NCBI GenBank assembly: GCA_033558025.1
Contig: JAUCEF010000007.1
Location: forward strand, 2,976,001 to 3,040,000
Length of the DNA: 64,000 bases
Reading direction: 5' to 3'
Source: Phytophthora sp. 'mugwort'
Lineage: Eukaryota; Oomycota; Peronosporomycetes; Peronosporales; Peronosporaceae
Shown here: positions 18,995 through 63,795 of the stretch, in pieces
Position numbering within the stretch: the first letter of the stretch is position 1
Layout of the letters: each line of letters starts with the position of its first letter
Made by a program: the position numbers and the translations under genes
The notes under the pieces: model-generated
What the model was told of the DNA's origin: nothing
What the model saw: only the letters and a program-made list of their open reading frames with translations
The model's database searches: none

Positions 18995-19885
18995 TCAATC
19001 GCTTAGGAACGTCTCGAGGAGCGTCGGCAGCGACTGGTGCAAACGGCAGTGGCGGTCGCGCTGAGCTCGCGACTGCGCAAAGTCCATGAGGTCGGTGAGG
19101 AAGCGCGCGAGGATCTTCTTGCGCTTGTTCTTGGTAGTCGCTACCCGCACGAACCAGACCGGTTGGGCAGCGTGGAACCTGGCGTACGTCTGAAACTGGC
19201 GGCAGTACTGACACAGGAAGTGCGCGTTCTGGCACGAGACGGCGACCGCCTCGTGCCGGAGTTGCGCAAATTCGGAGAATCGGCGCCGCACGCACAGGTC
19301 CGGGTGACGCTCAAGGGGCTCGTGCTCCGACGTTGAAGCAGTGGTTGGGGTCGCGGTGCTCGCCCGTGACGCGGAAGATAGCGGCGGCCGGAGCTGTGCC
19401 AATGGCGGCGACGAGGTGCGCATGGTCGGGATGTTGGAGGCGGTTGGGCAGAGCGTGTAGCCCTCCACCACGTAGAGCGTGGCGCCGTCTCGCACGCTTG
19501 TCTGAGTGTCAACAATGCGGATCTGATCCAGGTTCGAGAGGAACTCGATGGACATCGAGGTCTGCGAGCGGTCGCGTGGCGCAGACGATGATGGCGTGAG
19601 GTTTGTCCGCGTGTTGAGCGCTGGCAGCCTGTTCAGCTTGGGCGTCGCGCGTGTAGAGCTCAGCAGCGCTTTGTGGTGCGCCCGTTCCGTCGGCAAAGGG
19701 CATGGCTGCATGGTGCTGGCGGCCTCGGAGCTTGTGGTAAACGTGGTGGACACACTAGTCATGGTATCTTGCGTTCTCATGTTGGTGTATGAGGTGGAGG
19801 AAGCGGAAATGGCGTAGAGAGCGCGGGTGGCGCAAGCAGCCACGCGAAAGAGTACTGTACTGACCAGTTTTGAGCTGCAAAACAT
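18995..19885 (-). CDS. PX-like protein with C-x2-C, member 1
   Basis: Member of the window's thirteen-gene PX-like family. From the first ATG it has 296 residues; later in-frame ATGs at 19780 or 19762 would remove a hydrophobic start and are equally plausible. The domain begins around residue 110 (SMSIEFLSNLDQIRIVDT). The phosphoinositide-type motif RRRFSEFAQLR is at about 200-210 and keeps the basic pair. C-Q-Y-C follows at 225-228, then the helical part (KNKRKKILARFL) and the end HCRLHQSLPTLLETFLSD with the third cysteine near 280. A Ser/Thr-rich insert (about 150-190) separates the first strands from the basic motif. By family logic it would bind membrane phosphoinositides. That is inference. 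Confidence 0.78.
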   Translation of the reverse strand: MFCSSKLVSTVLFRVAACATRALYAISASSTSYTNMRTQDTMTSVSTTFTTSSEAASTMQPCPLPTERAHHKALLSSTRATPKLNRLPALNTRTNLTPSSSAPRDRSQTSMSIEFLSNLDQIRIVDTQTSVRDGATLYVVEGYTLCPTASNIPTMRTSSPPLAQLRPPLSSASRASTATPTTASTSEHEPLERHPDLCVRRRFSEFAQLRHEAVAVSCQNAHFLCQYCRQFQTYARFHAAQPVWFVRVATTKNKRKKILARFLTDLMDFAQSRAQRDRHCRLHQSLPTLLETFLSD

Positions 19886-20538
19886 GGGTACAGTACTACT
19901 ATGGTTCCTAGTGTAAGTAAGCTTCCGCCCTGTACCTACAGTAAATTGTCATGGTGCACTCATTATTGGGGCAATGCAAGAGAAATCTGCCATCAAGATC
20001 TAGTCGTCGCAGCAGCTATAGCATGAGGCTGGTTATCGACCCGATGAAATGCTCCCATCATCAACATGGGTGGAAGCTTCCAGCCATCTCTATAGAAGGT
20101 GGCTGCGACGCGTGAGCTCTGCGTGTGAGCCTTGGCTGACCGTTCGACAACGACGCAAAATGTTGCTGATGATGGTCATTCGTCCTCGGTGAGAGCAATC
20201 GCCGTCTTCAAAGCGGTGCCTCCATTTGCCGTCGTTGGCAGCAAGTGCGAAGCGTCTCATCGCTTGCTGATGTGATCTCCATCGTACATACCACGTCAAA
20301 AAGTGTAGGTCCTTGGGAGACGATGCTGATCTGAGTTCTTCGAGCTGATATGTACTGGTGGCAGTGCCACTGGCACGTGCAAGCCATATTCTATAGTGCC
20401 GAATTGATGATAGGCTCCGCGTCGCAGCGCATGAAGAACTCGTAGAGGGAAAAGACCGAAGAATTCGGTAAAGATGATGTTTATCTTGCGTATAATCAGC
20501 TTTGGGCATTAACTTATTGGTACTCTGTTCGCTTTTGC
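19886..20538. other. Intergenic region between PX-like members 1 and 2
   Basis: About 650 bp. A minus-strand frame of 183 codons (20090-20641) covers most of it but begins inside the PX-like gene in another frame and has no recognisable motif, so I do not call it a gene. It should contain the promoter of member 1 and the terminator of member 2. Confidence 0.4.
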
Positions 20539-21228
20539 CTAATACTTGGCGCCCTGCAGCAGAAATGCGCTCAGCACACTGGGCACTAGCTGCTGCGCTT
20601 GACACATGCGCTTGCCAGTCTTTTGTACTCGTCGCTGGCACAACGCGACCAAGTCATTGCTGAAAGTCTGCAGCACCTGCTTAAGCTTCTGCTCGCCGCC
20701 GAATCGCTTGATCAGTTCGCGCGGTTGATGGCTCGAGAATCGAATGTACTCCACGAACTTGAGGCAATACTGACAAGAGCACTGTCTCTCCATGCTCACA
20801 CAGGACGATACGTTCCTCTGCAGCTCGTCGAAGTCGCCGAATCGGCGCTCCACCCTGAACGTCGGGCAAACTGCTGCTACCCGCTCTTTGCTCGAGCTGG
20901 GCTTGCCGACGGGAAGACGCGACGTGGGCAGGCTCAAGAACACGTCCAGCATAAACACCAACCTGTTGCCTGCATCGGTCCGCGTCACGTTAATCTCCAC
21001 GCGTTCGACGCTCCACAGGAACCCTAGTGGAAGAGACGCAGTCCAGCGGCGATGCGCCTCAATTTTGAGCCCCAAATGCGGCTGCACTCCTTCCGCTGTG
21101 ATGCTTAGCGTTGGCGTGAACGACACGGATATAAGCGGATCACCGTTGGGCGACACAGGCACCAACAGTTTCGGGTGCAGCCCCATTTCGGACAGCGCGT
21201 TCTCGCTTCGTTGGCAAATAGCTGCCAT
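20539..21228 (-). CDS. PX-like protein with C-x2-C, member 2
   Basis: 229 residues. N-terminal strands run through EAHRRWTASLPLGFL and SVERVEINVT to FMLDVFLSLPTSRLP (about 57-105). The motif VERRFGDFDELQ is at 126-137 with the Arg pair kept. C-S-C-Q-Y-C is at about 150-155, and the third cysteine near 209 sits in CQAQQLVPSVLSAFL. Spacing from VERRF to the second cysteine of C-x2-C is 30 residues, exactly as in members 1, 3, 4 and 11. Its closest relative in the window is member 3 at 46.8 kb (shared EAHRRW and FLxSVxRxEIN segments), 26 kb away. Inferred role: phosphoinositide or other lipid-headgroup recognition. Confidence 0.78.
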   Translation of the reverse strand: MAAICQRSENALSEMGLHPKLLVPVSPNGDPLISVSFTPTLSITAEGVQPHLGLKIEAHRRWTASLPLGFLWSVERVEINVTRTDAGNRLVFMLDVFLSLPTSRLPVGKPSSSKERVAAVCPTFRVERRFGDFDELQRNVSSCVSMERQCSCQYCLKFVEYIRFSSHQPRELIKRFGGEQKLKQVLQTFSNDLVALCQRRVQKTGKRMCQAQQLVPSVLSAFLLQGAKY

Positions 21229-21543
21229 TATTGTGTAGCTTGATCTGGGTGAAATGGCTAGTAAACTATCTAGTGAGGGAATCTCTCGGTAGTCCAGCGA
21301 GTGCAGGGAAGGACGTTTGCGGGCACCATAATCTCTTGGCCGCCATCAACAGCCGTCATAATCGTACCACCAGTCTGTTGTACATGTACCAAGCGTTAGA
21401 GTTTACTAATAACCGTTGATTACGACCGTAGATATTAATAATAACCAGAACAAGTTGGAGTCGACCGAGACTGCTATGATAGGTAGCAGTATCAACTTAG
21501 TACAATGTGTTCGCATAAATTATTGTTTACTACTTACATCAAT

Positions 21544-22116
21544 CTACTCCTGCACCTTCACGTAGCGACCGTATCCAATGCAGATCCATTTCGCGGTCTT
21601 GGTCGAGGAAGTCGAAGCTCCTCGGTGAACTCGCTGCTTCAAAAACTGGCGAGCATTCGCGACGGCAGTGTCCTCGTCAAGCACGTTCTCGGACACGTCG
21701 CTGCCCGCAATACTATACGAATCGGAGGTGTCCGTGGCCGCATCCGAGTTCTCATCGTCGTCCTTGCTCGGGAGCATTTGACCTTGCTCGTTCTTTGACA
21801 AACAGTAGCCCGTGACTGCTTCGAGGTCCGCGAGCGAGACGATACCCGACGCGACTACTGAGAGAGCAGCTTCACGCAGGATCGAGGCCTCGTCAAGATC
21901 GACTTCTTCGTCTTCAGACGTCGGTCTCGATGCATTGCTAGTACTGTCATACATACTGTCGAAGTGGTTTGTGGCGTCTTGAGACTTCCTGCGCAGCTTG
22001 CGAACGCGCTGGACCGCGAGCTTCCAGAGCGTTGCAACCAACCGGGCGGTCCACAACGTGGTGGCCAACTTTGAGGTCAACAACTTGGTCGGCGACGAAG
22101 GTCGCGAGGCTAACAT
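21544..22116 (-). CDS. Acidic protein with C-terminal W-x3-GYGRYVK motif (unknown)
   Basis: 190 residues, no known family. A basic amphipathic start (KLATTLWTARLVATLWKLAV and RVRKLRRK, about 16-44) is followed by an acidic stretch (TSEDEEVDLDEASILREAA). A helical part (SGIVSLADLEAVTGYCL) comes next, then a Ser/Asp-rich linker and the end WICIGYGRYVKVQE. The tail and overall plan match the larger protein at 17699-18529, so the two form a small family bracketing PX-like members 1 and 2. All four genes lie on the minus strand. The helix could contact membranes; that is a guess from its composition. Confidence 0.65.
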   Translation of the reverse strand: MLASRPSSPTKLLTSKLATTLWTARLVATLWKLAVQRVRKLRRKSQDATNHFDSMYDSTSNASRPTSEDEEVDLDEASILREAALSVVASGIVSLADLEAVTGYCLSKNEQGQMLPSKDDDENSDAATDTSDSYSIAGSDVSENVLDEDTAVANARQFLKQRVHRGASTSSTKTAKWICIGYGRYVKVQE

Positions 22117-22817
22117 GGCACAGAAGATGAGCGCTGCTTGTCCTTTTCGAAAGTGAAAGGGACGGCAAGGCTGGACGCCTAGTCAAGTTGTCCCGTTCGG
22201 ATCGTCGCACGCCGTGGCTGCCAAGTGTGCCCGTCACCTGCACCTCCAAGGGTGCCTGCAGCTGTCATGGAACATTATCACAAGCCAACCATCAGTGCAG
22301 ATTTAGCTTGCGATCCTCTCTAACGAAGTAATCGGTAGGTTAGCAGGTTATAGTATCACAAGCGAACTCCATTAAATTGCAAATCTAATCACAAATACCG
22401 CGCCTTTACGAATGTGATTCAACGGTATTTTGGCATGGGGCCAGTGCAAGTTCAGACTTGGGGCTGTAAATGATAGGCGTCCCCTCGAGCGGGACTGCTC
22501 AAGCATGTCCGGTGCTGTCACGGATGGAAAATATTCCACCCTCATTTCCCATCAGGATGCTGTATGCACTGCATATTAATGCACTGCATATTATAGTTCA
22601 TTTCCTCAAGTTATACTAGCTGCAGCTGCTGTGGATCCTGCGCCACAATTAATGCAATCGATTGCCCGCCACTTCAACTTGGAGTGATTGTTCAACAACA
22701 CAACATAAGACTTACATGTAAGTTTACTGTCTATTAATAACAGAGGTCAGCTCTTCTTTTCTTCTATTGTTCATCGTATATCGTAGTTCATCTGGCTATA
22801 ATAATAAAGAGTAATTG
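22117..22817. other. Intergenic region, AT-rich
   Basis: No supported gene. A 15-bp unit (ATGCACTGCATATTA) is repeated in tandem near 22563-22592. The rest is unremarkable and should include the 3' end of the minus-strand acyl-CoA-synthetase-like gene and the promoter of the YGRY gene. Confidence 0.5.
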
Positions 22818-26006: not shown

Positions 26007-29000
26007 TCAGCTTTGACGGATGTGGATGCCCGTCTCCAGCCTCCGGTTGCTGTGGTGGCGCGGCGGCGGCGTCGGGTCCGCGTGCTCCAACCCCAGGCTG
26101 CCCAGTCCCTCAAAGTCTTCGCCGCACAGCTCCGTGAGCCGCGACATGGGGAACGCGTCCAGCACGTCCGTGTCCATCTCTTCGTACACGGCCTCTAACG
26201 TCGACGCCTTCAAATCCTTTACTAGTGCGAAGTTCCACTGCGCGAACACGTCCGATGAGATGCCCATACTACACAAAAGCACACCATTCCAGAGGTTAGT
26301 CGAGCCACGCAACAAGTTCAGACAGCAGTGGGGTCTCGTACCGTTGACGTATACGCTCCTTGACGTCCCCAACGGTGTCCCGCTCGCTGAAACGCACAAT
26401 ACTTGGCACGCCATGAGGGTGGATCCACTTCTGTGAGTTGTTTTGGAAGTTGAAATGCACGACGCCCTTGTAGAACCACAATGGACGCTCCCCGTCGTCA
26501 GATATCGCATCATTCACAGGCAGCTCCTCGGAAGCATTTGGATCAGAGCCTACAGAGTACTTTTCCTCTGCATCGACATCAGTCTTGACCTGAACTGCGG
26601 CCTCTAAAAGCTTGGACACTTCTTCTTTCTCCTCTCTGGTCTCGTCGCTCAATAACTCGTACGACGGAATCTGTTCCACCAGAATCTCAAGCGCATTGGG
26701 ATCCAAAACGCTGCCAGTTCCCCAATAGCGCGATAATGCCGCGTCCTCCGTAAGTACACGCCGGATCATCGATCCATGCTGTACAACCTCACATGCACGT
26801 AACGCAGTGTCGTCCGGCAGCCCAAATCCATCTCGAATAAGCACAAGCAAGTCGCGGACCTTGTGTGTGGGCATCACAAGTACTTCAACATGGCGATGCG
26901 GCGCTACCGATGACGGTGATGCAGCCTGCTCGGTAGCAAAGCACGCGTCGTAAATGCTGAGATGCACGAGGAGCTCCTTTTTAGCCTCAATCTCCGTGAT
27001 CGGATGATCAAGCAGTTCATAGTACAGGATGTTGGTACGCTCCAGATACCCAGTAAGCAGCTCCTCCAACGTGGTTTGATCGTCCCCAGCGTAGCGCGAA
27101 TGACGTAAAGGCGACTTCATGGGCAAGTTGTTGAAAGGCGAGTGCTGATACAATCGTACAAACAGTCGCTTCGAGCCTACGAGACCTAGATGCGCCGCCA
27201 CCACGTCAATCACCTCGTCGTACACGTTGCTAAGCAAAAGTGATAGCGTAAACGATTCATCCTCTGCGTATCCATAGCGGTGGAAAGTCACCTCCACGCG
27301 GTCTAGCAAGTACTGGAAGTACGATGGCACGTCTGGATACCTTTCCACTGATCGCATCTGATGCTTGTAAAGCTTTCCCATTGATATTTGCCCTGATCCA
27401 GCTGACCCGTGGCTATGAGGGTCCCGGTTGCCATTGACATACAAGGCGCTCGATTTCGGTTGGAAGGAGTCAGTCGTAGGTTTCTCATCCACGTCAGAAG
27501 AAATGACAGCCTTCACTTCTTCACCGTCTGGGCCGATGTACGTCGTCTCAATGGCATCAGGGTCATCTTCCACTCCCAACTCGGGCTTGAGCACGATACT
27601 GTTTACTCGTTCCTCGTCTTCAGCATACTGGAAGCAAATGATGTCTCCATTCTGGATTTCAGACCCTGTAAGGGTTGCTTCCATATCAATCTCCGATACG
27701 GTCACAGGCTGAACCTCTTCATACAGCAATAACTCTGTAGTGAAGGGAATCGACAGCGCCTCGTGCAACCGATTCGCTAGCTCTGCACCAGTTATCCGCG
27801 AATCCACAACGAGGTTCCCCATGTACTCGAGTCGCTCGCCGAGTTTCTTGTGAAGGTCGTAAGACTTAATGAACAGCACGATTTCGTGGCTCTGGAGTGG
27901 CGGGGCATGGTCTACTGTGACGCTGTTGCTAGCCTCGGCAAATGCAACAACAGCGTCTCCCTCCTCCTCCTCCTCCATCTCCTGGCTACGTTTGGTCTCG
28001 TCCTCGGAAACTGTTGCTTCTTCTATCACTGGGGGCGAGAATTCATCTAAGAAATGCCGGTAAATGATTGTTGTCAATATCTTGGCCTTCTTCACTCTTC
28101 TGTGACTATGGATAGACGGAGACGATGGCGACAATAAGGGCGAAGCTGATGAAGATTCTAACGAGGCGTCCAAGATCTGGAGATATAATTTAACAGGCGT
28201 TTTTGGTGGAGTATCATCCTCAATCAGCGAGTCCACACGACAGTCATAGACGTCAGGACCAAGTGGTTGGTCGGGTCGCGTTGTGCGGTTTTCACGCGTG
28301 ATGACTTTCCACAAGCGCTGTCGTGACATGGGAATACCGGTCTCTTTATACACGCGACGGTAAAGCTGGCGGATGGACGCTGCACGTTTAATGCGGACAC
28401 GCACCGTGCTCGAGTTATTAAACCCAGAGAAATCCGTTATCTTTGTAATCCGCTTGAGTTTGGCCACACTCGTGTCCGACGCGATGCGAAGATTCATGTA
28501 CAAGTGTTCAGTTTGTTGGGCTTTCTTGCGCCGTGCCGCTGCCTTTTCCTCTTCGTGGAAGCGAGTAACCAACTCTTCTGGGATCGGCAGCGGATCGCTT
28601 TGCCAACTAGGAAGCTCGAGCTCACCTGTGGAACCAACTTCACCCTCAGAAGCGGTCACTGGCGTCTTTTCTGCCTCGACACTTGCACCAACTGCCTCCT
28701 GAATGGCACTAATGTCATTCTCGCCATCACGCACGTACACAAGCATGTATGCGCTCGAAAAACTCCTGCCAAGTGGGAGCATTAAACTGTTTGACGACGA
28801 GTTGAGTGGGAGACTACCACTGCCGTTGCTTTGGCTGGAATCGTACACTTCCTCTACTGTATGATCACCGTCTCCACCTAATACTTCTCCTGTATCCACT
28901 GATCTGAACTCGAGGCCATCCATACTACTCGGCTCGTTACTGTTTCCACCATTCCGATCCGGCGAACAAAAGAGTGAGGATGAATACAGTGGCGATCGAG

Positions 29001-30744
29001 GCTCTGTAGAACCATCTTGCGGCGTTACAGGAGTCCCTGCTGAGCCAAAATTGCCCTCAATCGCTACCTGTTCGTCTACGCGTGTGATCTGGTCGTCATC
29101 AAATCGGAACCAATCAGTGCTTGTCGCGATATGCTTCCCGGGCCGAATAAATACGTAATAATGACCGCCATGGACATCGCCACTGTGCACTAAAACGCTG
29201 TGCAAATGATAACTAAACCGTGACGATTTGTCGTTGCTGCCTTCCACTTCCTCCTTGTCTTCATTCGAGAGAAACTCGTCCAGTACGAGCGTTTTCGGAA
29301 ACTCAAAGCGATCGTGAATCTTGACCATCCCATCACGCATTGGATCGTATTCAAAGCGTTTTAGTTGAATATTAAGAACGGGTGGAAAAGTGAGAAACTT
29401 GATGCCCTTTTTGGCATCCTGTTTCCCATGTCCTTCTGCTTCGTATTGATTATCTCCATCGAGCAGTTCCACTTCCACATATTTACGGAAAGACTGCATC
29501 AAGTCCTTGCAGCCTTTCACATCGAGTTGCAAGTCGTAGAAACTTTCATCTCGGAATGACTGAAAGTCCACGTTCACACACTGTACAAAAGACCGCACTT
29601 TTCCTTCGAAAAGCTTCTGAATAGCCGAATCCACTCTTGTGCGCTTCATTTTTTCCTCTAACCGATCGCACAGAATCCGGTATAGTTCCTGCACATCATG
29701 CTGCATGAACGAGTCGATCGCACTCCAGCCAAACGAGCGCGTCAGCTCCTTTGTTGACACAGCTTTCTCTTGTCTTTGTAACCTGTAAAAAACGCGTTGC
29801 AATGCCAACGACACTGAGTCATTGGTGTCTTCCTGAGCCGTGGGAGTTTCGTACACCATTTGTCTAAACGCTCGCAAGTGAAACAGCGTTTGCAGCAGCG
29901 AATTCAAGTAACAGGTGGCTCCCTGGTTCTTCAAACCCACCATCCCTGTCTCCTCCTTCGAATCGTACGACAGCAAGTGCTGCGTCGTCTCCAACGCGTC
30001 CGTAGTCCCCTCTGCAGAGATCGTCGAGTGTAGCGGTTCCCCCACCTGCTTCTCCACCGCTGCAACGTCACCCACAAAGCTCAGACGCACCTCGATCTCC
30101 ACTTTCCCGTGCTCATCCACGTACTTATTGGTCGGATTAAGCAGTTCGCTCCTTTGGACGAACTGACTCATGCCAAACTCCGCGCTCTCCTTGGAAAACT
30201 CGTGCACGCTCGTGTGTTTAACAAGCGGTGGTTGTCCTCCCTGATTATGGAGCGCAATATTCACTTCTGCCAGTCTGGAGGCCTGCAGTTCCTGCTCGAC
30301 GAGTTCCACGAACACGCCGACAAAAGTCGGGTCTGTGGGGCTTCTAGGCTGCCAAATAAGGCGCCAGGAGGCTCCCTCAGCGTCTTTTTGTGTGGTCGTC
30401 ACGGCTCGCTCGTTGCTCAGTCCTAAAACCTGGAATCGGGCGTGGAATAGGAGCTCTGATGGCTCTGTGTCCGGAATTTGATCATCTGGGGCGGCCTTGG
30501 CGTCGCCAGGAGCCGCCGCGGCTTCGTTGGCGCTGACGACTGCAGGAGGTGAGCGCGATGTTTCCACGTCCATGGGCTCCACATCAGCGTCGGTCTGCGT
30601 GTTAAGCTTCTTGCGGCGCTGGGCCTCGGGCGGCGAGTCACCGACCGGACTCCGACGCTTCTCCACCATGCCGAGGACTGACGAGTGAGGGAGCGGGTGG
30701 TTGGAAGAAAATGGGCCGTTTTCGACCAATTGAAGAGGCCCCAT
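26007..30744 (-). CDS. Ubiquitin carboxyl-terminal hydrolase, USP7/UBP12 type (two exons)
   Basis: Cysteine protease that removes ubiquitin from proteins, in nucleus and cytosol. Domains: a MATH/TRAF-like region (about 95-230), then the USP catalytic domain with the Cys box GLKNQGATCYLNSLLQTLFH (about 279-298). The His box HSGDVHGGHYYVFIRPG follows (about 520-536), then several ubiquitin-like C-terminal domains. Exon 1 is 26342-30744. I place a 73-nt intron at 26269-26341 (GTACGAG...TGTAG, branch-like CTAAC), joining in frame to 26007-26268, which encodes the usual USP7 end (FAQWNFALVKDLKASTLE). Without the splice the frame stops at 26296. Spliced product 1554 residues, longer than animal USP7 (about 1100), partly through acidic and Ser-rich inserts in the catalytic domain. 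Confidence 0.93.
26269..26341 (-). other. Intron of the USP7-like gene
   Basis: 73 nt, GT...AG on the minus strand, phase 2, with CTCGACTAACC as probable branch site. Splicing restores the C-terminal ubiquitin-like domain that a read-through frame would lose. Confidence 0.75.
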
Positions 30745-46191: not shown

Positions 46192-46816
46192 CTGTGCTAA
46201 GCGGGCGTTCCCCATACATGTTGGGTTTGGTATAGACTTTAACGCAATGCACCTCGCAAATATCCACCCGCTCTGCGTTCAGTACGCTCGGTGGTTCAGC
46301 ATCGCGTGATGCTTGCTGATCAAGCGGTGGCTGATGCTGTCGCCTGTATCAAAAGTTACCGGCGGTCGTGTTGGCGACGTTTGACTGTAACTCACGCACA
46401 ATATCAAAGTACATGTAAGTCGCTATTGGCGGTCAGACCATCGACTCTAGCGCTCGGTTAGATCGTTAACCAGCAGAATCTTTGGGTCTTCATTGCCGAC
46501 CAGGCACTGACTCGTCAGCTGACTGGTCGGCAGCGTTGACTGGTTCAGTTGTCCACACCTCATTGATGCCGCCGAAACTCGCCTTTCGCATGCAGCCGGA
46601 GTGATGGTCGTCTTTTGCTTGGGAGCATCGACAGCCAATTAGCGACGAGAGGGTTCCAGATAGCACTGTGCGTCATTGGATCCTGTCTCATGTCTTCAGC
46701 CAAACGCATCACCATTTTGAGCAAGCGACTGTATGTTGTCAGCGCGTGTCGCCGAAGAGAAGGCGGGAATGCGCCGCCACTTTCGAATTTCCTTTGAAGC
46801 GATAACAATCAACAGC

Positions 46817-47527
46817 ATGATCGCATTGACGACCATAGCCGACCACGAGCGCCCGCTTCCACTCCAGAAGCTGCAGAAGCTCATGCCGCATGACTGCGCC
46901 ATCGTGGTGGCCGCCAAGACAGACGAGGACATGGAGCTGCTGCCCTCGGTCCCGCGGCCGCAGCGCGTACAACGCAGTCTACGGCTGGACCTGGAGGCGC
47001 ACCGCCGCTGGAACACGAGCGTGTCTGTGGGCTTCCTCAACAGTGTCGACCGCATCGAGATCAACGAGACCAGTGTGGGCGAGGACAAGACCGTGTACTA
47101 CGCGCTGGAGGTGTATCTGAGCCTGCCTGCGTCGCGACTACCCACGAGCCCATGCGGCCCGGCGAACGCGTCCCCACCGCGTCACCATGCAGCGCACCCG
47201 ACGTTCAAGGTGGAGCGGTGCTTCGCCGAGTTCGAGGAGCTGCGCGAGAATGTGCTCAAGTCTGTGAGCCTCTTGCCGCAGTGCACGTGCCAGTATTGCA
47301 TGGACTTCCTCGTCTACATCCGCTACAAATACAGCCAGCCGCGCGGTATTGTCAAACTTACCTCAGGCACGGAAAAGCGCAAGCAGATCCTCGCGACGTT
47401 TATTAACGACTTTATTGTCATGGGTCAGCGTCGGGAACCGACACTTGGCAAGCGCAAATGTGAGGCACAGAAGCTGATACCAGCCATGCTGGAAGCGTTC
47501 TTGCTCAACAACGCAAGGGACTCCTAG
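46817..47527 (+). CDS. PX-like protein with C-x2-C, member 3
   Basis: Frame opens at 46733. I prefer the ATG at 46817 (236 residues) because conserved sequence begins soon after and family members start with a short leader. Strands: LDLEAHRRWNTSVSVGFL, SVDRIEINETS, YYALEVYLSLPASRLPT. The basic motif is VERCFAEFEELR, where a cysteine replaces the second Arg of members 1, 2, 4 and 11, so classic 3-phosphate binding is doubtful. C-T-C-Q-Y-C follows at the usual distance, then EKRKQILATFINDF. The protein ends KCEAQKLIPAMLEAFLLN with the third cysteine. Nearest paralogue is member 2. It is convergent with the CDIN1 gene, about 110 bp between stops. Confidence 0.78.
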   Translation: MIALTTIADHERPLPLQKLQKLMPHDCAIVVAAKTDEDMELLPSVPRPQRVQRSLRLDLEAHRRWNTSVSVGFLNSVDRIEINETSVGEDKTVYYALEVYLSLPASRLPTSPCGPANASPPRHHAAHPTFKVERCFAEFEELRENVLKSVSLLPQCTCQYCMDFLVYIRYKYSQPRGIVKLTSGTEKRKQILATFINDFIVMGQRREPTLGKRKCEAQKLIPAMLEAFLLNNARDS

Positions 47528-48717: not shown

Positions 48718-48878
48718 TGGTAACCTGTATTTGCGTCGGCAACAATAATATATTGCGGAGATGGGATTGGGTGAAAATCAGTCTTTATGATTTAGACTTG
48801 GATAAATTATATTTGGAGTTTCTAGAGCGATACACTGAACTAAACTATGTGAGGTGGCCGTAGCGTAAACACTGAGGC

Positions 48879-49553
48879 TCAATCCCTTAGGAAGCTCTCG
48901 AGCAGGGCCGGCACATGCTGGTGGGCCTCGCAGCGGTGCACCGTGTTCTTCGACGGGTTCTGCGCAAGGTCGACGAAATCGATCATGAAATCCTGCAACA
49001 TTTCCTTGCGCTTTTCGACGTTGGAGTTAAGCGACATGAGCAGCCGCGGTTGGCGCAACTTGAAGCGCATGTAGCGGCCATATTCGTAGCAATACTGGCA
49101 CGTGAATTGAGCGTTGGGGCAAGTCCAGAGTTTAATCTGGTGCCGCAGCTTGGCAAAGTCCGAGTAGCGTCGCTCCACGCGGAAGTCGGGCTCGCGCGGC
49201 TCGTTGGTCTCAGACAGGCGCGTGACGGCCATGCGTGGGTTGTTGACATTCGTGGGCAGCCGCGAGTTGTAATGGAACTGGAAAACCTCCACTACATAGT
49301 AGGTCACGCCGTTGCGCTCCACGGTCTCGTTAATCTCCAGATTGTCGATGTTGCTCAGAAACGACAGCGAAAAGGACGCCGTCGACCAGCGCAGTGGCTC
49401 TAAGCGCACGGGCGTGAGAGGCGGTGCCTTGATGTCCGCTGGCATCTCGCGCTGCGACTCCTTGCGCGCCAGGCGCGGGATCAGGTTCAGCTGCAACGGC
49501 GTGTGCTCCTCCGAGGCGGTGACAATGACGAGAGGCTGCGGCATGGCAGACAA
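48879..49553 (-). CDS. PX-like protein with C-x2-C, member 4
   Basis: 224 residues and the clearest family example. Strands: RWSTASFSLSFLSNIDNLEIN, then YYVVEVFQFHYNSRLPT. Basic motif RVERRYSDFAKLR (about 125-137), with both Arg and the aromatic residue as in 3-phosphoinositide-binding PX domains. C-x2-C (CQYC) is at 152-155 where PX domains have a proline-rich loop. YMRFKLRQPRLLMSL and EKRKEMLQDFMIDFVD form the helical half. The end is HRCEAHQHVPALLESFLRD with the third cysteine near 208. Predicted to bind phosphoinositides on endosomal or vacuolar membranes; this is inference. Confidence 0.82.
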   Translation of the reverse strand: MSAMPQPLVIVTASEEHTPLQLNLIPRLARKESQREMPADIKAPPLTPVRLEPLRWSTASFSLSFLSNIDNLEINETVERNGVTYYVVEVFQFHYNSRLPTNVNNPRMAVTRLSETNEPREPDFRVERRYSDFAKLRHQIKLWTCPNAQFTCQYCYEYGRYMRFKLRQPRLLMSLNSNVEKRKEMLQDFMIDFVDLAQNPSKNTVHRCEAHQHVPALLESFLRD

Positions 49554-51095: not shown

Positions 51096-51176
51096 TTGAT
51101 GGGACAGGCCCAATTACTTTTGATCCGTATCCCATCGCATTCCATTGGCCATCTCGCATCACGTTCTCCATTGATC

Positions 51177-51881
51177 ATGCCGGTGGAGGCAACTTCAACG
51201 CCCGTGCCAACCTCGCCGCGGGTCTTGACGCCGTCCCAAACGGCCGTCGTGGCGCTCCATGCCGCAGCTGAGAAGGCGCCCTCCCCGAATCCCCGTGGTC
51301 GCAGCGGCTCCTTCGTCCCGCTCCAGCGTCTTGAGTGTGTGCAGGTGGCCAAGGAGCTCCGCCGCGATGGACGCCGCGTCTACGTGGCTAGCGTCTTCCT
51401 TCATCGCAGGGAAACGCAACGTCGCCTCGCCGACTGTGTGTACAAGGCCACGCCAACCTCGAAGCTATCGGCCGAGGAGATGCGCGCGTTCATGATGTCC
51501 GAGCGCGAACCGGACTACTCGGTGGAGCACCCGTTCTCCGAGTTCCGCCAGCTCCGCGACAGCATCATAGCACTCTTGAGGACCAACAGAGCGCACGTGA
51601 AGACGTGCACGGACTGTCAGGACTTGCTGCGTGTGATGCGCAGCCCCCAACACCACCATTGGACGGTGAAGCGGATGTTCGGCAATACGCAGCAGCGATT
51701 CGCGCTGCTCACGGCATTTGTGAACGACCTCGTGACGCTCACGGCCAGTGCCGGCGAGCGTACGACTCGTGAAAATATCACGGAAGCTACAGATAAGAAC
51801 TGCCACGTTTGGGAACGAGTTGGGAAACTGTTGCAGGAGTTCCTCAGAAATGAGTACAAGCAGTCGCTCGGTATCATCTAA
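51177..51881 (+). CDS. PX-like protein with C-x2-C, member 5 (divergent)
   Basis: Frame opens at 51096; the ATG at 51177 (234 residues) is preferred because conserved features begin after it. First strands: LQRLECVQVAKEL and RRVYVASVFLH. The basic motif reads SVEHPFSEFRQLR, so His-Pro stands where the lipid-binding Arg pair is expected. The C-x2-C is C-T-D-C, 32 residues from the motif start. The helical part is NTQQRFALLTAFVNDLVTL and the end is NCHVWERVGKLLQEFLRNEY, with the third cysteine but without the usual IP. The fold is probably kept while classical phosphoinositide binding is likely lost. Confidence 0.68.
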   Translation: MPVEATSTPVPTSPRVLTPSQTAVVALHAAAEKAPSPNPRGRSGSFVPLQRLECVQVAKELRRDGRRVYVASVFLHRRETQRRLADCVYKATPTSKLSAEEMRAFMMSEREPDYSVEHPFSEFRQLRDSIIALLRTNRAHVKTCTDCQDLLRVMRSPQHHHWTVKRMFGNTQQRFALLTAFVNDLVTLTASAGERTTRENITEATDKNCHVWERVGKLLQEFLRNEYKQSLGII

Positions 51882-52294: not shown

Positions 52295-52873
52295 CTATGC
52301 TTCCGGTGTAAGGCCAAACAGGAAGTTGTGCAGCATCTGCGGGATGTGAGCTTGTCCACTGCACACGGTACGACCGTCAGTCGAAGAGTTGTGGACGGTT
52401 AGCGCGAGCAAGTCGTTCAGCAGCTTGGTAAGCTTGCGGAGCGCTCGCTCCTCGCCCAGCAGCCGCAGCGTCAGCGCTTCTGGGTCAGCACTGCCCAGCA
52501 CGTAGAGCTCGACCAGCTCGGCGCAGAACTCGCAATGTGCATCGTTGTGAGCCGACCACGCGGTGCTGTAGATGTCTCCTCGCAACAGACCGAACTCGTT
52601 CAGAGTCTTCTCCGTCCGCATCGCCGCTTTGAGGGTTCTGCCACCGTTGGGATTAGGGTCCACGCTAGTTGGGCTGTCGTTGTCCATGGAGTTGCGAAAC
52701 ACCTCCACTGTGTAGAGAGCTTTGATGCCCTTGCCAGTGCGACTCGACACGCGGATGTCCACAATGGTCTTGAGCTCCAGCAGTGCCTGTCGTCGCGCTG
52801 ACACCCACGCGGGTTCGATAGACACGGGGATCAATAGCTTCAGCTTGCACTTGTTCGACAGGTTCGGCAGCAT
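52295..52873 (-). CDS. PX-like protein with C-x2-C, member 6
   Basis: 192 residues, the second shortest of the set. It belongs to a subgroup with members 7, 9 and 10. Start: LLIPVSIEPAWVSARRQALLEL, then VDIRVSSRTG and LYTVEVF. The basic motif is degenerate (RTEKTLNEFGLLR). C-E-F-C is preceded by SAHNDAH, a histidine placed as in members 7, 9 and 10. The helical part is EERALRKLTKLLNDLLAL and the end is VCSGQAHIPQMLHNFLFG with the third cysteine. It lies about 345 bp downstream of member 7 on the same strand, as expected for a local duplication. Confidence 0.75.
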   Translation of the reverse strand: MLPNLSNKCKLKLLIPVSIEPAWVSARRQALLELKTIVDIRVSSRTGKGIKALYTVEVFRNSMDNDSPTSVDPNPNGGRTLKAAMRTEKTLNEFGLLRGDIYSTAWSAHNDAHCEFCAELVELYVLGSADPEALTLRLLGEERALRKLTKLLNDLLALTVHNSSTDGRTVCSGQAHIPQMLHNFLFGLTPEA

Positions 52874-53217: not shown

Positions 53218-53862
53218 CTAGGCGGTGTCAGTTGCTGCAGTGAAGAGGAACGCGTGCAAGATTCGGGGTACTGCGGTTTGCCCGGCGCAGCAGCCTCGTG
53301 TGTCGATCCCAGTGTGCTTGACGGTGAGTGCTAGCACCTCCTCCAGGAACTTTGCCAGTGTGCGCGCCAACCGCTTACCGCCTAGCAAGCCGACCAGGAA
53401 TCCGTCGGGGTTCGTTCCGAACACGACCTGGTCCGTGAACTTCGCGCAGAATTCGCAGGCCTCCGCACGATGTGCGTCGTGCACGATGTCGTACACTCTG
53501 TTACGTAGCTCCACAAACTCTAGCCATGACCGTTCGATCCGGACTGCCGGTCTCCGTACCCGCGCATCTGCTTGTATCTCGTCGCTATCTGCTCTTGACA
53601 GATCCGGACTCGCCGAATCGGCAAACACTTCAACAACGAACCAGTATTCCTTGTCCGCGCAACGGACTTGGACGGCGTCAACTTTCTTAAGCTCCAGCAG
53701 TGCATTCCGTCGCGCGGACACGATCGAAGGTGCGATCGCGACGGGCACCAGCGGCTCAAGCTTCGAGCCCAGCTTGTCAGAAAGCGGTGGCAGCATGGTG
53801 ACAGGTCGATGATTGGCTGTCGCACTGCGCTTCACGTCACAATTGGAAATGGGCGACAGCAC
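53218..53862 (-). CDS. PX-like protein with C-x2-C, member 7
   Basis: 214 residues. The N-terminal half matches member 6 (LVPVAIAPSIVSARRNALLELKKV, then YWFVVEVF), so the two are local duplicates. Basic motif VRIERSWLEFVELR: one Arg kept, the aromatic position Trp. C-E-F-C at about 136-139, preceded by HDAHRAEA. Helical part GKRLARTLAKFLEEVLAL, and end GCCAGQTAVPRILHAFLFT with the third cysteine doubled (CC). The mid-domain acidic insert (SRADSDEIQADARVR) replaces the SR[LI]PT segment of the other subgroup. Confidence 0.75.
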   Translation of the reverse strand: MLSPISNCDVKRSATANHRPVTMLPPLSDKLGSKLEPLVPVAIAPSIVSARRNALLELKKVDAVQVRCADKEYWFVVEVFADSASPDLSRADSDEIQADARVRRPAVRIERSWLEFVELRNRVYDIVHDAHRAEACEFCAKFTDQVVFGTNPDGFLVGLLGGKRLARTLAKFLEEVLALTVKHTGIDTRGCCAGQTAVPRILHAFLFTAATDTA

Positions 53863-54826: not shown

Positions 54827-55354
54827 TTGAAGAGGACACGTCGTAGACTTGACAACATGCTGCAGTCGCTCTCGATCCAGCCGCTGGTGCCCGTCCTGGG
54901 CGGTGACCCGTGCAACCACTCGCGGCCCGAGCCCGTCGCCAACATCCTCACGTCGCCAGACAGCTACAAGGGCATCAACGCCACCGTGCACGTGTTCTTC
55001 CGCGCGACCGCCGATCAGTCTCAGCCACAGCAGCCGCTACAGGAGCGCACCCCCGACTATTCGTTCCGGTGCACGTTCGCGGAGCTTAAGAAGCTGCGGT
55101 CGCAGATCCAGTCGACCGTGGGCCGCGGTGGCCACTGCGCGCACTGCAAGCGTGTGGCAACGTACATGGCCTACTGCTGGGAGAGACCGCGTCTGCTCGC
55201 CCCGTCATGGCAGGGCGGCATGACACTGCAGATGGAGCCGCTGACCTCGTTCCTGAACCAGCTGTTGTGCTTTGCCGCCCAGCTGGGCGCCGAGGACCAC
55301 CCGGAGTTTGCTGCCATCATGGCGCGCTTCATGCAGTCTCACGATGAAGTATAA
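54827..55354 (+). CDS. PX-like protein with C-x2-C, member 8 (short)
   Basis: 175 residues (or 165 from the ATG at 54857), the shortest member. Strand region SYKGINATVHVFFRA lacks the usual length before the motif. The motif is degraded to FRCTFAELKKLR, with Cys-Thr in place of the basic pair. C-A-H-C follows after only 28 residues. The helical part (MEPLTSFLNQLLCFAAQLG) and the end (FAAIMARFMQS) are recognisable, but the third cysteine and the IP motif are missing. The reading frame is intact, so it is either a diverged small protein or an early pseudogene. A TATA-like sequence sits about 30 bp upstream of the first ATG. Confidence 0.6.
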   Translation: MKRTRRRLDNMLQSLSIQPLVPVLGGDPCNHSRPEPVANILTSPDSYKGINATVHVFFRATADQSQPQQPLQERTPDYSFRCTFAELKKLRSQIQSTVGRGGHCAHCKRVATYMAYCWERPRLLAPSWQGGMTLQMEPLTSFLNQLLCFAAQLGAEDHPEFAAIMARFMQSHDEV

Positions 55355-55884: not shown

Positions 55885-56547
55885 TCAGACACGGGGCAAG
55901 AGGAACTGGCGCACGACTTGGTGACTGCGGCCTTGGCCAGAGCACCACGGCGTGCCCTCGACGCAGGCGAAGTGGACCAGGATGTCTAAGACGTCGTCCA
56001 CGAACTGCTGCAGCGACCGAATGATCTTTCCGCGCCCAACGAGGATACGAAGCACCGTGTTCCCGAATTTATTATTGTCGCCCATGTCAAGGAACAGAAC
56101 CATCTCCTTGCAGAACTCACAGGAGACGGACGTGTGCGCTAAGTGTGACGCGTTGTAAAGAGCCTGACGGAGGTTGTCGAAGTCCGCAAGTGTCTTGTCA
56201 ACCCCGTACGGAAGGGCTGACTGTCGAGCACCTTCGCTCTTGTTCAGCATGGAACCTCTTGCGTCAAAGTCGCTTGGGCTGGTAGGCGAGGAGCTAGTAT
56301 ACACTTCAAGTGTGTAGTATCTTGTGCCTTGACGACGAGAAGTGGCACTGGAAACGAGAACCTTCTCGAGTTCGTGGAGTGACAGCAGCCGACGGTGGGA
56401 AGCTGCTGCTGCTTCGACTGGAGTAAAACGTGGCAGGACGTAAGAACTGCTGTCTCGTGAAGGTAATCGAGCCGCACTCATTCCGTGGCGTGGTGTCTGC
56501 ATAGGGTGGCTTTTTCTGAAGTGAGCCATGGGGTCATCATCAATCAT
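55885..56547 (-). CDS. PX-like protein with C-x2-C, member 9
   Basis: 220 residues. Start RFTPVEAAAASHRRLLSLHELEKV matches the members 6, 7 and 10 pattern (proline, then an Arg-rich helix into LxELxxV). Then YYTLEVYTSSSPTSPSDF. Motif GVDKTLADFDNLR: the Arg pair is lost (Asp-Lys). C-E-F-C at about 143-146, preceded by LAHTSV. Helical part GKIIRSLQQFVDDVLDIL, and end WCSGQGRSHQVVRQFLLPRV, where the third cysteine stays but the IP is replaced by SH. Probable shared fold with altered ligand. Confidence 0.73.
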   Translation of the reverse strand: MIDDDPMAHFRKSHPMQTPRHGMSAARLPSRDSSSYVLPRFTPVEAAAASHRRLLSLHELEKVLVSSATSRRQGTRYYTLEVYTSSSPTSPSDFDARGSMLNKSEGARQSALPYGVDKTLADFDNLRQALYNASHLAHTSVSCEFCKEMVLFLDMGDNNKFGNTVLRILVGRGKIIRSLQQFVDDVLDILVHFACVEGTPWCSGQGRSHQVVRQFLLPRV

Positions 56548-57319: not shown

Positions 57320-58009
57320 TTAAGCCAGCAGGTCTGTGTCTCCGAAGAGGAACTGAAAAAACTGTCTTGGAAGCTTCTCCTGGCACGGGCAGGCATCCGC
57401 GTCGATGACGGGGCACGACACTGCTAGCATCAGCAGAGACTCGACGAATCGCTGCACCGCTTTCGTCTGCTGGTGCTGCGGTAGTACCCACGACAGCAAT
57501 GTGCCCGGTAGTACTGCTCCAAGGAGCAGGCAGCGGGCCACTTCGCTGCAGAACGAGCAAGTCATGCACGGGTGCGCTGTTTGGCAGATCTCGTACAGCT
57601 CGTCGCGGAGCTTTATGAAGTCGAGGAACTGCTTCTCCGTGTGGGCATCTGGTTGGCGGAAGAGCATGGTGCACTTCTGTCCATTTGCCGCCGCGTCGGC
57701 AGCCTTGAGGCTGGTAGGGATGCGAGTCGTGGACTGAGACGGAGTGAACACGTCGATGACGTAGCTGCACTTGCTTCCCGGGACGCGGGACACTTGTACG
57801 CGGCGGATCTGTTTGAGTTTGGTAACGATCTGCATGTGACGCGAGTAGCGCTCGGGCATGAGGTTCACAGGCGCGAGACGGGTGAGGCCGCCGACAACAA
57901 TCGTGGACGACTGCTGCTGGATATTTGGCATACTCGCGATTATATTGTGGGTGTGTCTTGGAGTCGGTGCTGGAGCGCGCAAGATGAAAAGTGAAACGTG
58001 TCGGGGCAA
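57320..58009 (-). CDS. PX-like protein with C-x2-C, member 10
   Basis: 229 residues. Start LAPVNLMPERYSRHMQIVTKLKQIRRVQVSRV (in parts), then YVIDVFTPSQSTTRIPTS, so the SRIPT-type segment is retained. Motif HTEKQFLDFIKLR has Lys-Gln instead of Arg-Arg. C-S-F-C at about 151-154, preceded by QTAHPCM with an extra cysteine. Helical part TKAVQRFVESLLMLAV, and end DACPCQEKLPRQFFQFLFG with a pair of cysteines in the third-cysteine region. A member of the 6/7/9/10 subgroup by the AH-x4-C-x2-C pattern. Confidence 0.75.
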   Translation of the reverse strand: MPRHVSLFILRAPAPTPRHTHNIIASMPNIQQQSSTIVVGGLTRLAPVNLMPERYSRHMQIVTKLKQIRRVQVSRVPGSKCSYVIDVFTPSQSTTRIPTSLKAADAAANGQKCTMLFRQPDAHTEKQFLDFIKLRDELYEICQTAHPCMTCSFCSEVARCLLLGAVLPGTLLSWVLPQHQQTKAVQRFVESLLMLAVSCPVIDADACPCQEKLPRQFFQFLFGDTDLLA

Positions 58010-58566: not shown

Positions 58567-59214
58567 TCATGCGACGTAGCACCGCAGCTGGATGAACTGC
58601 TCAACGAGGACTGGGATGGACTGGAAACCGAGGCACCACACGTCCTGTGGGCGAGTGTTCACATCCGATTTGGGGTGCCCCACGGTATATTCGATCAGGC
58701 GGTTAATAAATTGCGATAGCAGCTGCTTGCGGGCCTTCGGGCCTGTGCAGAGCTTGATGAAGGCTGTTGGCCGACGGTAGCACGCGAACATGAACACGCG
58801 AATGGAGTCGCAGTACGGGCAAGTAGCCATTAGCTGCTGCTGCGAGGCAGCCGTCACACGCTCGCGCAAAGTCTCGAACTCGCTGAAGCGGCGCAGCACG
58901 CGGAAGTCGGGTTGCTTGTGCGCGCGGGTCTGTGGAGACAGGAGCTCCTCTGCCTGTTGTTTCGTGTTGTTGTTGTTGGTCGGGATGCGGCTCAGTTGGT
59001 GGTGCATGTATATGTCCAGCACGTAGAATACGACGCCGTCCACGGTCTTGGTGCCGCTGATCTCGATGTGATCGATATTCTTGAGGAATGTCAGTGGCTC
59101 CGAATAGCACTTTGGATACACGCGCTTGGGCTGGAGCGCCGGGGCCGACACCTTCCGCAGAAACGGGTCGTCCGCTAGGTGGTCGCAGCGAGCGTCGCTT
59201 GAGGTGGCAAGCAT
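58567..59214 (-). CDS. PX-like protein with C-x2-C, member 11
   Basis: 215 residues. Strands: EPLTFLKNIDHIEISGT, then FYVLDIYMHHQLSRIPTN. Basic motif RVLRRFSEFETLR (about 105-117) keeps the Arg pair and aromatic. C-P-Y-C at about 132-135 with the standard 30-residue spacing. Then FMFACYRRPTAFIKL and KARKQLLSQFINRLIE, ending WCLGFQSIPVLVEQFIQL with the third cysteine. Close in layout to members 4 and 13. A candidate true phosphoinositide binder. Confidence 0.8.
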   Translation of the reverse strand: MLATSSDARCDHLADDPFLRKVSAPALQPKRVYPKCYSEPLTFLKNIDHIEISGTKTVDGVVFYVLDIYMHHQLSRIPTNNNNTKQQAEELLSPQTRAHKQPDFRVLRRFSEFETLRERVTAASQQQLMATCPYCDSIRVFMFACYRRPTAFIKLCTGPKARKQLLSQFINRLIEYTVGHPKSDVNTRPQDVWCLGFQSIPVLVEQFIQLRCYVA

Positions 59215-60698: not shown

Positions 60699-61427
60699 TC
60701 AGCACAGGTGATTGACTTGTCCGGTCTTCTTTAGGAAGCGTACGAGGCGGTACGGGATGTGGTCGAAGCCATGGCAGTGCGGGCTCCGCTGGCCGTCGCC
60801 GCCGCGGCCGACGGCGAGAATCACCATGCGGTTCAGGTAAGCCTCCATCATGTCCTTCCGATGGGCCTTGGTGGCCCAGATCTTCTCTACGAGGCCCGAC
60901 GGGCGTTTGCTCGAGTTGCCCACAAACGCCGTAATGTCGTCACAGTAGATGCAGCCGCGCGCGGGACGCGGCTGCTGCGCGTGCACCCAGATATTGTAGC
61001 GCAGTTTGACGAACTCGCAGAATTCACGCTCCACTTGGTAGTCTGAGTCCTGCGGGCCGGATGAGGTCATCGGCAACTCCGTGACGCTGTGGCGGCACTG
61101 AGGGGACCCGTCGGTCGTGGCGGCGGACGAACGGCGCGTGGCCGAATTTCGTGATGTCGGGATGCGGATTTCTGGGTTCTTAAGGAAGACTTGCACCACG
61201 TAACAGAGTTTGCCCTGGCGCTTAACGGTCTCGTTCACCTCAACGTGGTGAATAGCCTTGAGGAAACCCAGCGCGTCTGCTGCCTTGGCGTAGTGGCACG
61301 GCCACATGCGCAGCGGCTGCAAGTCCGGCACGAGCAGCATACTGTTGGCGCCGGGCTTTCCTGGGGGCGACGCCGGACGCATCTCCTCTTCCGCGAGGTT
61401 CTGCGTTCGATACATCATACGCATCAT
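60699..61427 (-). CDS. PX-like protein with C-x2-C, member 12
   Basis: 242 residues. Strands: ALGFLKAIHHVEVNET, then CYVVQVFLKNPEIRIPTS. A Ser/Thr-rich insert (RRSSAATTDG) precedes the motif YQVEREFCEFVKLR, in which the second basic residue is Glu. C-I-Y-C at about 159-162, preceded by PRPARG. Helical part KAHRKDMMEAYLNRMVIL, and end HCHGFDHIPYRLVRFLKK with the third cysteine. Intact frame; ligand binding probably changed because of the Arg-to-Glu difference. Confidence 0.77.
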   Translation of the reverse strand: MMRMMYRTQNLAEEEMRPASPPGKPGANSMLLVPDLQPLRMWPCHYAKAADALGFLKAIHHVEVNETVKRQGKLCYVVQVFLKNPEIRIPTSRNSATRRSSAATTDGSPQCRHSVTELPMTSSGPQDSDYQVEREFCEFVKLRYNIWVHAQQPRPARGCIYCDDITAFVGNSSKRPSGLVEKIWATKAHRKDMMEAYLNRMVILAVGRGGDGQRSPHCHGFDHIPYRLVRFLKKTGQVNHLC

Positions 61428-63123
61428 CTTGTGCTGCTTTTTGGTTTTTGATGGCTTGGTAGCTAGCTATAGCTTGTTGGTTGTAGGCTGCAGAACAGTA
61501 AATGGCTTGCGGAGGGGTCGGCACGGCCGGCCTAATCATCACCTTCTTGGAAGCGACTATACCGGATATCTTTCCTCTATTTTATCTTACATACGTATAT
61601 AGAGGAAAATGAAAAACAGAGTATGCTTAATTTCAGAAAATGAAAATTTGGGGATCTACTGAAAGAGGTATATAAATGTTCAGAAGGGGAAAGTCAGTGA
61701 GTGACCATACTGCATGTCTGATGAATGAGGTTCCCACCTCCCACGGTGCGGGTCCCACAACCAACTGCAAGGTGGCCAGAGCCGTTGCGCAAAAAAAATG
61801 ACAGGTGATGGGCATAGCGAGTTAAGCGCCTCACCACAGTGGTGACCACATGCCCCACTCGCGCTCTCGATGGCTTGTGCGCACTTCGCATCGTAGGACT
61901 GGACGGCAAGCCGAGTCGAGCATTTCCTTCTGTTACACTGGCCGACAGCATGGCGTAGGTTGCCTCACTTTTTTAAGTCAGCATCGGCGCAAAAGCACGC
62001 GTCTGGCGTGGCTTTAACGATATCCTGCACCGTCTGTTACATCGACATGGCTTCATATGGTGTGGCGGACACTACAATGCGAACCTCAACTTACTGTGAT
62101 GGACACGCTTCGGTGCGCGGGCACGCGTATGAAATTGGTCGAAGTTCAGCGGATCATGGGCATTTTTTTTTGTCTATAAGCAGCCGATATTGCTAGCCTC
62201 GGCGGTGGCGACATTCGTGCCCTTTAATAACCGTTGTTGGAAGTGTCTGGCGGGTGTTGAACATTCGACTGCCAAGGGTGACGCTTCGCTGCATTTATAG
62301 ATTTGCGACTTCTACTTGCCAGCAGGACTACAACGACTTCAACTTGTCAGCAGGATCTACATATATGTACCGCACACGACGGACGTGTGGTAATGCGTTG
62401 GTGCTCTACTGCAAGAATTTTGATGTTGCTTTGTATTCTCCTGGAAACTGCTCGAATGCTTTTCATTTTCTCCTTCTAACTTTTAAACGTTAAGAAGATC
62501 AGTAGCTGTTAGGGCAAAGGTGCAGGAATCTATCGGGGACCGACATTACATGTACCGGTATCATTTAGCTGTCGACATATTAATATTGTTTGGTTGTGGT
62601 TGGAAGCGACATCCGCGCAAGCTCGCCTTGCTTATGGAAGCAATGATCCAGTCATATCATTCTGGCTTGCCAGATATTGTGTGGTGGACTGGAGAAGCAA
62701 GTGGTCAAAACGATGCGAGTGCCTGGGTGCTTCGAAGCGTTCGTAGTTATTTCCGTTGCCAGGCCTATTGCGTTGAGATGACGAAAAACACGAATACTGT
62801 CAGCGTGCGCGGCCAGTACTTGCTCTGCTTTGATCATCAGATGGCATAAAACGCAGACAAGTCCATATTTAACACAGACACGATTCACCCCACAGCCTGC
62901 TATTTACGAGTTTAAAAAATACTATGCGAGTGTGCGCTGGGCGCTGAGAAACTTAGCCGTTGCCCGCTCGTCTTGTCTAACTATACCAATATTCTACAGA
63001 CAACATTAAGTTAATTTAGACAGCTGGTCAACACAGGGTTTTTCGGCAGGGAGAGAGAATCGCCGCAGTCGCATCACTCAGGCATTGGCTTGCCAGATGG
63101 TGTTTCCATCTTAGCCAACATTA
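61428..63123. other. 1.7-kb intergenic region
   Basis: A 109-codon plus-strand frame (62520-62849) and several shorter ones have no known motif. A pair ACTTCTACTTGCCAGCAGGA / ACTTCAACTTGTCAGCAGGA near 62308 and 62338 is a short tandem duplication. No gene supported. Confidence 0.4.
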
Positions 63124-63795
63124 TCAGGCGTCGTCGCGGAGAAACCTCTCGACCAGCGCTGGGATCGTCATGTAGCCGTCGCACGTGTAGTAGCGTTGCC
63201 GGGGCTTATCCTTGCCGCCAATAGCTAGCTCGATATACTTGTTGATGCCCTTGGCCAGTAGGCGACGGCGGATCTTCTTGTCCTTGATGAATAACTTGAT
63301 TAACAGGCGTGGCTGCGAAAAGCTAGTCACGAGGAAGTCCATGCTGTTGCTGCAGTACTTGCACGCGGCCCCACCGTCGTGCTGGCGCTGCGCGTAGCTC
63401 CATATCTGGTACCGCAGGTTGGCAAAGTCGTTGAAGCGCTTCTGAATGGTGTAGTCCGGTTCGTCTCGCCGCGACGCCTCCAGTCGTTTGTTGGTCGGGA
63501 TGCGGTTCGTGTGGTGCTTCAGATAGATGTCCACGAAGTAGTAGACAACGCCGCCGATCTCGGCGAAGTTGGTGATCTCGACGTGGTCGATTTTCTCCAG
63601 CACGCTGATGGGCTCCACTGCACTGGACGAGTGGTGTGGCGTCAGACAGACCGGAGATAGAGATGGTGCCCAGGCGCGCTCCCAGAAGTGGACCATGTGT
63701 GATGATGTGAATTGTGGCGGTGGTGGAGGAAGAAGGAAGGAGGCGGAAGCTCGCGATGCCGTTACAACAGTGATGCACCCTCCGAGTGATGGCAC
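63124..63795 (-). CDS. PX-like protein with C-x2-C, member 13
   Basis: 223 residues. Strands: VLEKIDHVEITNF, then YYFVDIYLKHHTNRIPTN. Basic motif YTIQKRFNDFANLR with Lys-Arg and an aromatic, compatible with phosphoinositide binding. C-K-Y-C at about 145-148. Then LVTSFSQPRLLIKLF and KKIRRRLLAKGINKYIEL, ending TCDGYMTIPALVERFLRDDA with the third cysteine. The most distal member seen; the array may continue beyond 64,000. Confidence 0.8.
   Translation of the reverse strand: MPSLGGCITVVTASRASASFLLPPPPPQFTSSHMVHFWERAWAPSLSPVCLTPHHSSSAVEPISVLEKIDHVEITNFAEIGGVVYYFVDIYLKHHTNRIPTNKRLEASRRDEPDYTIQKRFNDFANLRYQIWSYAQRQHDGGAACKYCSNSMDFLVTSFSQPRLLIKLFIKDKKIRRRLLAKGINKYIELAIGGKDKPRQRYYTCDGYMTIPALVERFLRDDA

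Follow-up and report, generated by a model that had tools for sequence, protein, structure and literature searches.

Thirteen tandem PX-related genes of Phytophthora sp. 'mugwort' as a probable branch of cysteine-stapled oomycete PX domains

A 64,000-nucleotide stretch of the Phytophthora sp. 'mugwort' genome (C7:2976001-3040000, hereafter the window; genome assembly of 86.3 Mb in 154 contigs) contains thirteen ATG-to-stop open reading frames (ORFs) of 165 to 296 aa, found by ORF translation, whose products are related to the PX domain and all carry a C-x2-C cysteine pair. The genes are best read as a tandem branch of a cysteine-stapled set of oomycete PX domains in which the staple most likely holds zinc, a reading to which we assign a probability of about 0.6. 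The branch would have formed by birth-and-death evolution, and the device common to the whole set would be a cysteine staple in two halves: a C-x2-C or C-x3-C starting an extra helix that follows helix 1 and precedes the proline loop, and a single cysteine or two where the last helix begins. In the cytosol, cysteines of both halves, lying close together in the folded protein, would hold one zinc ion, and this metal staple would tie the loop region and inserted helix to the C-terminal helix and stiffen the loop side of the domain. The full four-cysteine form would have been retained in a widely conserved group, with the window family down to three and without a conserved fourth ligand.

A preliminary description of this DNA had already placed thirteen genes here with C-x2-C in each, which is borne out (13/13), except that it ended the last gene at 63795, whereas the first ATG of member 13 is at 63696. 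Window coordinates below run from first ATG to stop of the predicted ORFs, and codon positions within member 4 were obtained by arithmetic from its ORF; Cys3 PX denotes a three-cysteine PX.

18995..19885, minus strand: member 1, Cys3 PX; both lipid-site Arg present (RRF and alpha2 Arg)
20539..21228, minus strand: member 2, Cys3 PX; RRF present, alpha2 Arg gone
46733..47527, plus strand: member 3, Cys3 PX; phosphate Arg gone (RCF)
48879..49544, minus strand: member 4, Cys3 PX; both Arg present; the structure-predicted member
49155..49172, minus strand: member 4 RRYSDF motif, residues 125-130
49089..49100, minus strand: member 4 C149-x2-C152, N-end of helix 150-162
49047..49049, minus strand: member 4 P166, read as a remnant of the PX proline loop
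48930..48932, minus strand: member 4 third cysteine, C205, N-end of last helix 206-220
51099..51881, plus strand: member 5, Cys3 PX; phosphate Arg gone (HPF)
52295..52873, minus strand: member 6, CEFC type; neither Arg present
53218..53796, minus strand: member 7, CEFC type; neither Arg present
54857..55354, plus strand: member 8, most divergent; without the third cysteine; neither Arg present
55885..56547, minus strand: member 9, CEFC type; neither Arg present
57320..57931, minus strand: member 10, neither Arg present; copy on C12 with 73% identity and a dN/dS (ratio of nonsynonymous to synonymous substitution) of 0.13
58567..59214, minus strand: member 11, Cys3 PX; both Arg present
60699..61427, minus strand: member 12, Cys3 PX; phosphate Arg gone (REF)
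63124..63696, minus strand: member 13, Cys3 PX; both Arg present (KRF)

Mean column identity across the thirteen aligned members is 26%, with L63, L133, C149, C152 and F218 (member 4 numbering) invariant throughout. The family is nevertheless real, because leave-one-out profiles recovered every member, with E values between 1.2e-50 and 1.2e-10 and member 8 the weakest, from 2078 six-frame ORFs searched together with the same 2078 reversed, among which the best reversed-control match had an E of 0.22. The C-terminal FL earlier ascribed to all members is present in eleven, with FM in member 8 and FI in member 11. The nearest named matches come from Phytophthora: member 4 shares 89% identity with a protein of P. 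capsici and 88% with one of P. oleae. A Pfam search of the thirteen members found no RING or other recognized domain in them. It also gave weak rows for members 1, 2, 3, 5 and 6 (E 0.02-0.16), among them a phage zinc-binding family, Sina_RING, EcoEI_R_C, Benyvirus_14KDa and Hce2, and for member 11 several non-PX rows at E 0.05-0.23; these were rejected as chance, as the family differs from paralogue to paralogue and all lie far under the cut-off.

None of the thirteen members reaches the Pfam PX cut-off (PF00787, 21.6 bits), the closest being member 11 (20.4 bits) and member 4 (19.5 bits), and a search of PDB sequences using the 13-row profile returned nothing significant; ribosomal eL43/L37a rows in the PDB search (E 0.4-2) were discarded, as they span only the stretch around C-x2-C. 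Both negatives would suit an independent small family that is not PX and has its RR[YF]xDF motif by chance, an idea that deserves hardly any credence given the profile-profile comparisons, in which the family aligns with 22 plain PX domains of the same genome (E 7.4e-6, probability 84) and with four-cysteine (Cys4) PX (E 6.7e-10, probability 97). One genomic family member, C7:3112342, clears the PX cut-off at 22.4 bits, and for 10 of the 59 family rows the PX match has E<=0.01. The AlphaFold structure predicted for member 4 has a PX fold, and among the matches listed for it 50 of 50 are PX. The proposed PX relationship is thus upheld by profile-profile comparison and by the predicted fold of one member, even though no member passes the Pfam cut-off. 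The genome as a whole has 75 exon-level PX matches above that cut-off.

The 59-row family alignment, which leaves out 8 of 54 family-search matches, four of these without C-x2-C (P0021, P0022, P0053 and P0054), has C149 and C152 in 59/59 rows and C205 in 57/59 at a mean column identity of 22%. The third near-invariant cysteine, overlooked in the preliminary description, is present in 12 of the 13 members and absent in member 8. A cysteine-bearing PX was defined here by a first site (C-x2/3-C after helix 1 and ahead of the loop), present in 13/13 members, and a second site (a cysteine before the last helix), present in 12/13; conservation of the third cysteine means that C-x2-C makes up only half of a site with two parts. 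The first cysteine lies 22 to 26 residues from the motif start, not the 28 to 32 previously given (eleven members from a motif scan, the other two, 2 and 8, by visual count on the translations). In the predicted models, C149/C152 of member 4 and C86/C89 of a four-cysteine relative both start the extra helix, and C205 and C140/C143, respectively, are both at the N-end of the last helix. Profile alignment likewise puts C149/C152 on C86/C89 and C205 between C140 and C143. AlphaFold starts two helices at these cysteines without a metal, as would be expected if they were purely structural helix caps retained by packing, with neither metal nor bond; this is quite unlikely, since packing does not readily fit two invariant cysteines in 59 rows of such low identity or a pair that co-occurs with a distant second site.

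The cysteines are compatible, judged from sequence, with the metal site or disulfide suggested earlier. A metal in the staple would probably be zinc, by analogy with familiar C-x2-C knuckles. Weighing against the zinc staple, the window family has three conserved ligands rather than the four of the Cys4 group (75/78): no further Cys, His, Asp or Glu is found in columns kept at 90% or more across the 59 rows, and position +3 is occupied by Q in six members, H in two, F in two, W in one and Y in one, with one gap. Three cysteines without a conserved fourth ligand are odd for zinc and natural for thiol-disulfide exchange, in which the pair, or one of the pair with the C-terminal cysteine, would oxidize and lock or release the last helix. 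Such a disulfide or redox switch is nonetheless unlikely, as the conserved four-cysteine relatives resemble a metal site. Moreover, a crude hydropathy scan found no consistent signal peptide in the members' N-termini (member 1 has a hydrophobic start, its true ATG being unsure), which makes stable disulfides unlikely; a disulfide in a secreted protein was rejected as the principal explanation on the same crude scan.

The Arg of RR[YF] and the helix-2 (alpha2) Arg are taken here to be the phosphoinositide contacts of PX domains; in p40phox, the 3-phosphate is held by the second of the two Arg in RR[YF]. That Arg is present in 5 of 13 members and the helix-2 Arg in 7 of 13, and both occur together only in members 1, 4, 11 and 13. 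Across the family, both are found in 22/59 rows while the cysteines are near-universal; the staple therefore outlives the lipid site. Members 1, 4, 11 and 13 would be expected to bind a phosphoinositide such as phosphatidylinositol 3-phosphate (PI3P), whereas many window members are, to judge from their residues, perhaps no longer lipid binders, and the remaining members would be expected to serve as adaptor modules using the same scaffold for protein contacts.

The preliminary description had the cysteines replacing the membrane loop, which their position does not support: the insert that holds the pair comes after helix 1 and ahead of the proline loop, and a proline read as that of the loop remains in 11/13 members (44/59 family rows), without a PPxP or FPxK motif. 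Likewise, FP follows the pair in 14 of 15 other Cys-pair PX matches of the genome, as FP[RK][RK] in nine of them. The proximity of the pair to the loop that faces the membrane in ordinary PX domains, together with loss of Arg in many members, would suit S-acylated cysteines serving as a membrane anchor in place of the lipid-binding Arg. This is very unlikely: an anchor requires neither the fixed C-x2-C spacing nor a linked distant cysteine, and 57 aligned four-cysteine PX proteins retain both Arg and the loop proline.

The cysteine staple reading extends beyond the window. The description of the family as a cysteine-modified PX holds in that the pair is in 13/13 members but not as a private trait, as a wider oomycete PX set has the cysteine feature: 15 other PX matches of this genome, one doubtful, have a similar cysteine arrangement. 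The oomycete four-cysteine PX proteins (P0055-P0132, named 'PX domain-containing protein' and otherwise) resemble the window family in having C-x2-C in the insert, an aligned loop proline and Cys before the last helix, but differ in having C-x2-C at both sites (C-x2-C...C-x2-C) in 75 of 78, including relatives from Saprolegnia and Albugo; the pattern is lacking in P0096, P0118 and P0127. These proteins are 199 to 412 aa long, the 57 aligned ones retain R60, R118 and loop P102, and this genome has four copies, of which three lie within 142 kb on C5.

Phylogenetic analysis groups most of these sequences with moderate support. A tree of 77 PX rows with the three Cys-rich columns omitted has a 31-row group (Shimodaira-Hasegawa-like approximate likelihood ratio test [SH-aLRT] 95) that takes in every window member and 13 of the other 15 Cys PX. 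Omitting the whole insert and the C-linker (89 columns) gives a 31-row group of the same make-up (bootstrap 75, SH-aLRT 92) with 26 of 28 Cys PX, in which the 13 members and one other Cys PX (C7:3112342) form a clade with support of 100/99. Several points speak against a single origin: two Cys PX lie beyond the 31-row group, five rows within it have no pair, and the cysteine label requires at least 7 changes on the tree (shuffled mean 22.8), with 3 forced even when just the well-supported branches are counted. Five PX proteins with a C-terminal RING-H2 (L045, L027, L077, L093 and L038, on C18, C1, C6, C9 and C13) fall inside the group with the window members, the Cys pair being present in three of them. 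They correspond to oomycete PX-RING proteins such as PPTG_08353 and differ from the window members in having a RING. In PMC7409359, PX plus RING is described as an oomycete-specific combination, and PPTG_08353 as induced by K+ more strongly than any other gene in zoospores of P. parasitica. Separately, a second PX cluster at C18:440598-455495 has seven PX matches, all without the Cys pair.

Oomycete expansion of the family was proposed earlier and is supported. The genome has at least 27 uninterrupted family ORFs, 13 in the window and 14 outside, with C-x2-C in 27/27: nine more are on the window's own contig (C7:2,873,340-3,121,748) and single copies are on C2, C3, C6, C8 and C12. At least eight additional copies are broken or partial. 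The genome was searched with members 4, 5, 7, 8, 10 and 11 plus one distal copy, and selected stretches with the family profile; member 8 as query matched itself only. Named family matches in protein searches are all from Phytophthora, Nothophytophthora or downy mildews, and named matches overall are from oomycetes only, many matches being without names and the reach of the searches word-limited (one scored 7992 candidates sharing most words). Inverted duplications at C7:3041447-3047087 (98.0% over 1.8 kb) and C7:3119059-3121891 (99.5% over 1.1 kb), lying 1.4 and 79 kb beyond the window on its downstream side, have one family member in every arm and are either recent or an assembly effect. The dN/dS of nine paralogue pairs is below 1 (0.13-0.45; Nei-Gojobori method, NG86), values that are rough because dS reaches 2.1. 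These sequence comparisons indicate ordinary birth-and-death evolution of genes under constraint.

Compared with known PX domains (PF00787; nischarin, CISK/SGK3, SNX11 and SNX19), the window family has an extra helix with C-x2-C before the loop and an added Cys before the last helix (solved PX structures were not searched specifically for such a site), and has lost the lipid-site Arg in most members. The FYVE zinc finger, a PI3P reader, has a different fold from PX, and no FYVE row is among the Pfam matches of the 13 members. Its likeness to a zinc-stapled PX is one of idea, zinc and PI3P in one small cytosolic module; FYVE motifs have eight zinc-binding Cys, according to PMC2837644 and PMC8233823. 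No description of a Cys- or zinc-bearing PX or of this cluster was found in the open-licence literature, outside which lie most subscription papers and bioRxiv, nor in the available parts of PMC2837644, PMC8233823, PMC7409359 and PMC3019232. The PX label is not new, because UniRef names some relatives 'PX domain-containing protein'; what seems to be new is the cysteine site, together with its distribution.

Other genes also lie in and around the cluster. A USP7-like ubiquitin hydrolase (26296-30744, minus strand) and a KDM5-like demethylase with JmjC, ARID, PHD and PLU-1 (33073-38232, plus strand) separate members 2 and 3, which means that unrelated genes interrupt the cluster. Genes at 17699-18529 and 21544-22116 (both minus strand), adjoining members 1 and 2, have no convincing Pfam match and share a C-terminal W-x3/4-YGRYxK (one BLASTP comparison, E 4e-4 over 22 residues); the motif recurs in a third ORF, located in the distal cluster (C7:3091989-3092603, plus strand). 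A tandem pair at 40124-41893 and 42558-44579 (minus strand) has short N-terminal matches to Mlo, a family best known from plants, at E 3e-5 (below cut-off) and 6e-7 (above cut-off). The region around 4703-5128, a reverse-transcriptase RNase H fragment (E 1.8e-19) amid several broken frames, looks like retrotransposon remains. In P. ramorum, P0023 joins a member 4 relative to a PF14811 domain and is named CDAN1-interacting nuclease 1; it may be a gene-model fusion of neighbours, as the ORF adjoining member 4 (48268-48717) has no Pfam match.

PX domains rank with the principal readers of PI3P and of endosomal identity. The staple, if true, would alter a textbook membrane module across a whole lineage of major parasites of plants and animals, and a tandem array with and without lipid-binding residues on one scaffold lets the role of PX after loss of lipid reading be asked. 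It is conceivable, at somewhat less than even odds, that a zinc-stapled PX arose before the Saprolegniales/Peronosporales split and that one Phytophthora and downy-mildew branch expanded into a tandem array of small single-domain adaptors with fast-changing surfaces, in which the staple would be essential, lipid reading optional and the fourth metal position open, with possible zinc or redox control.
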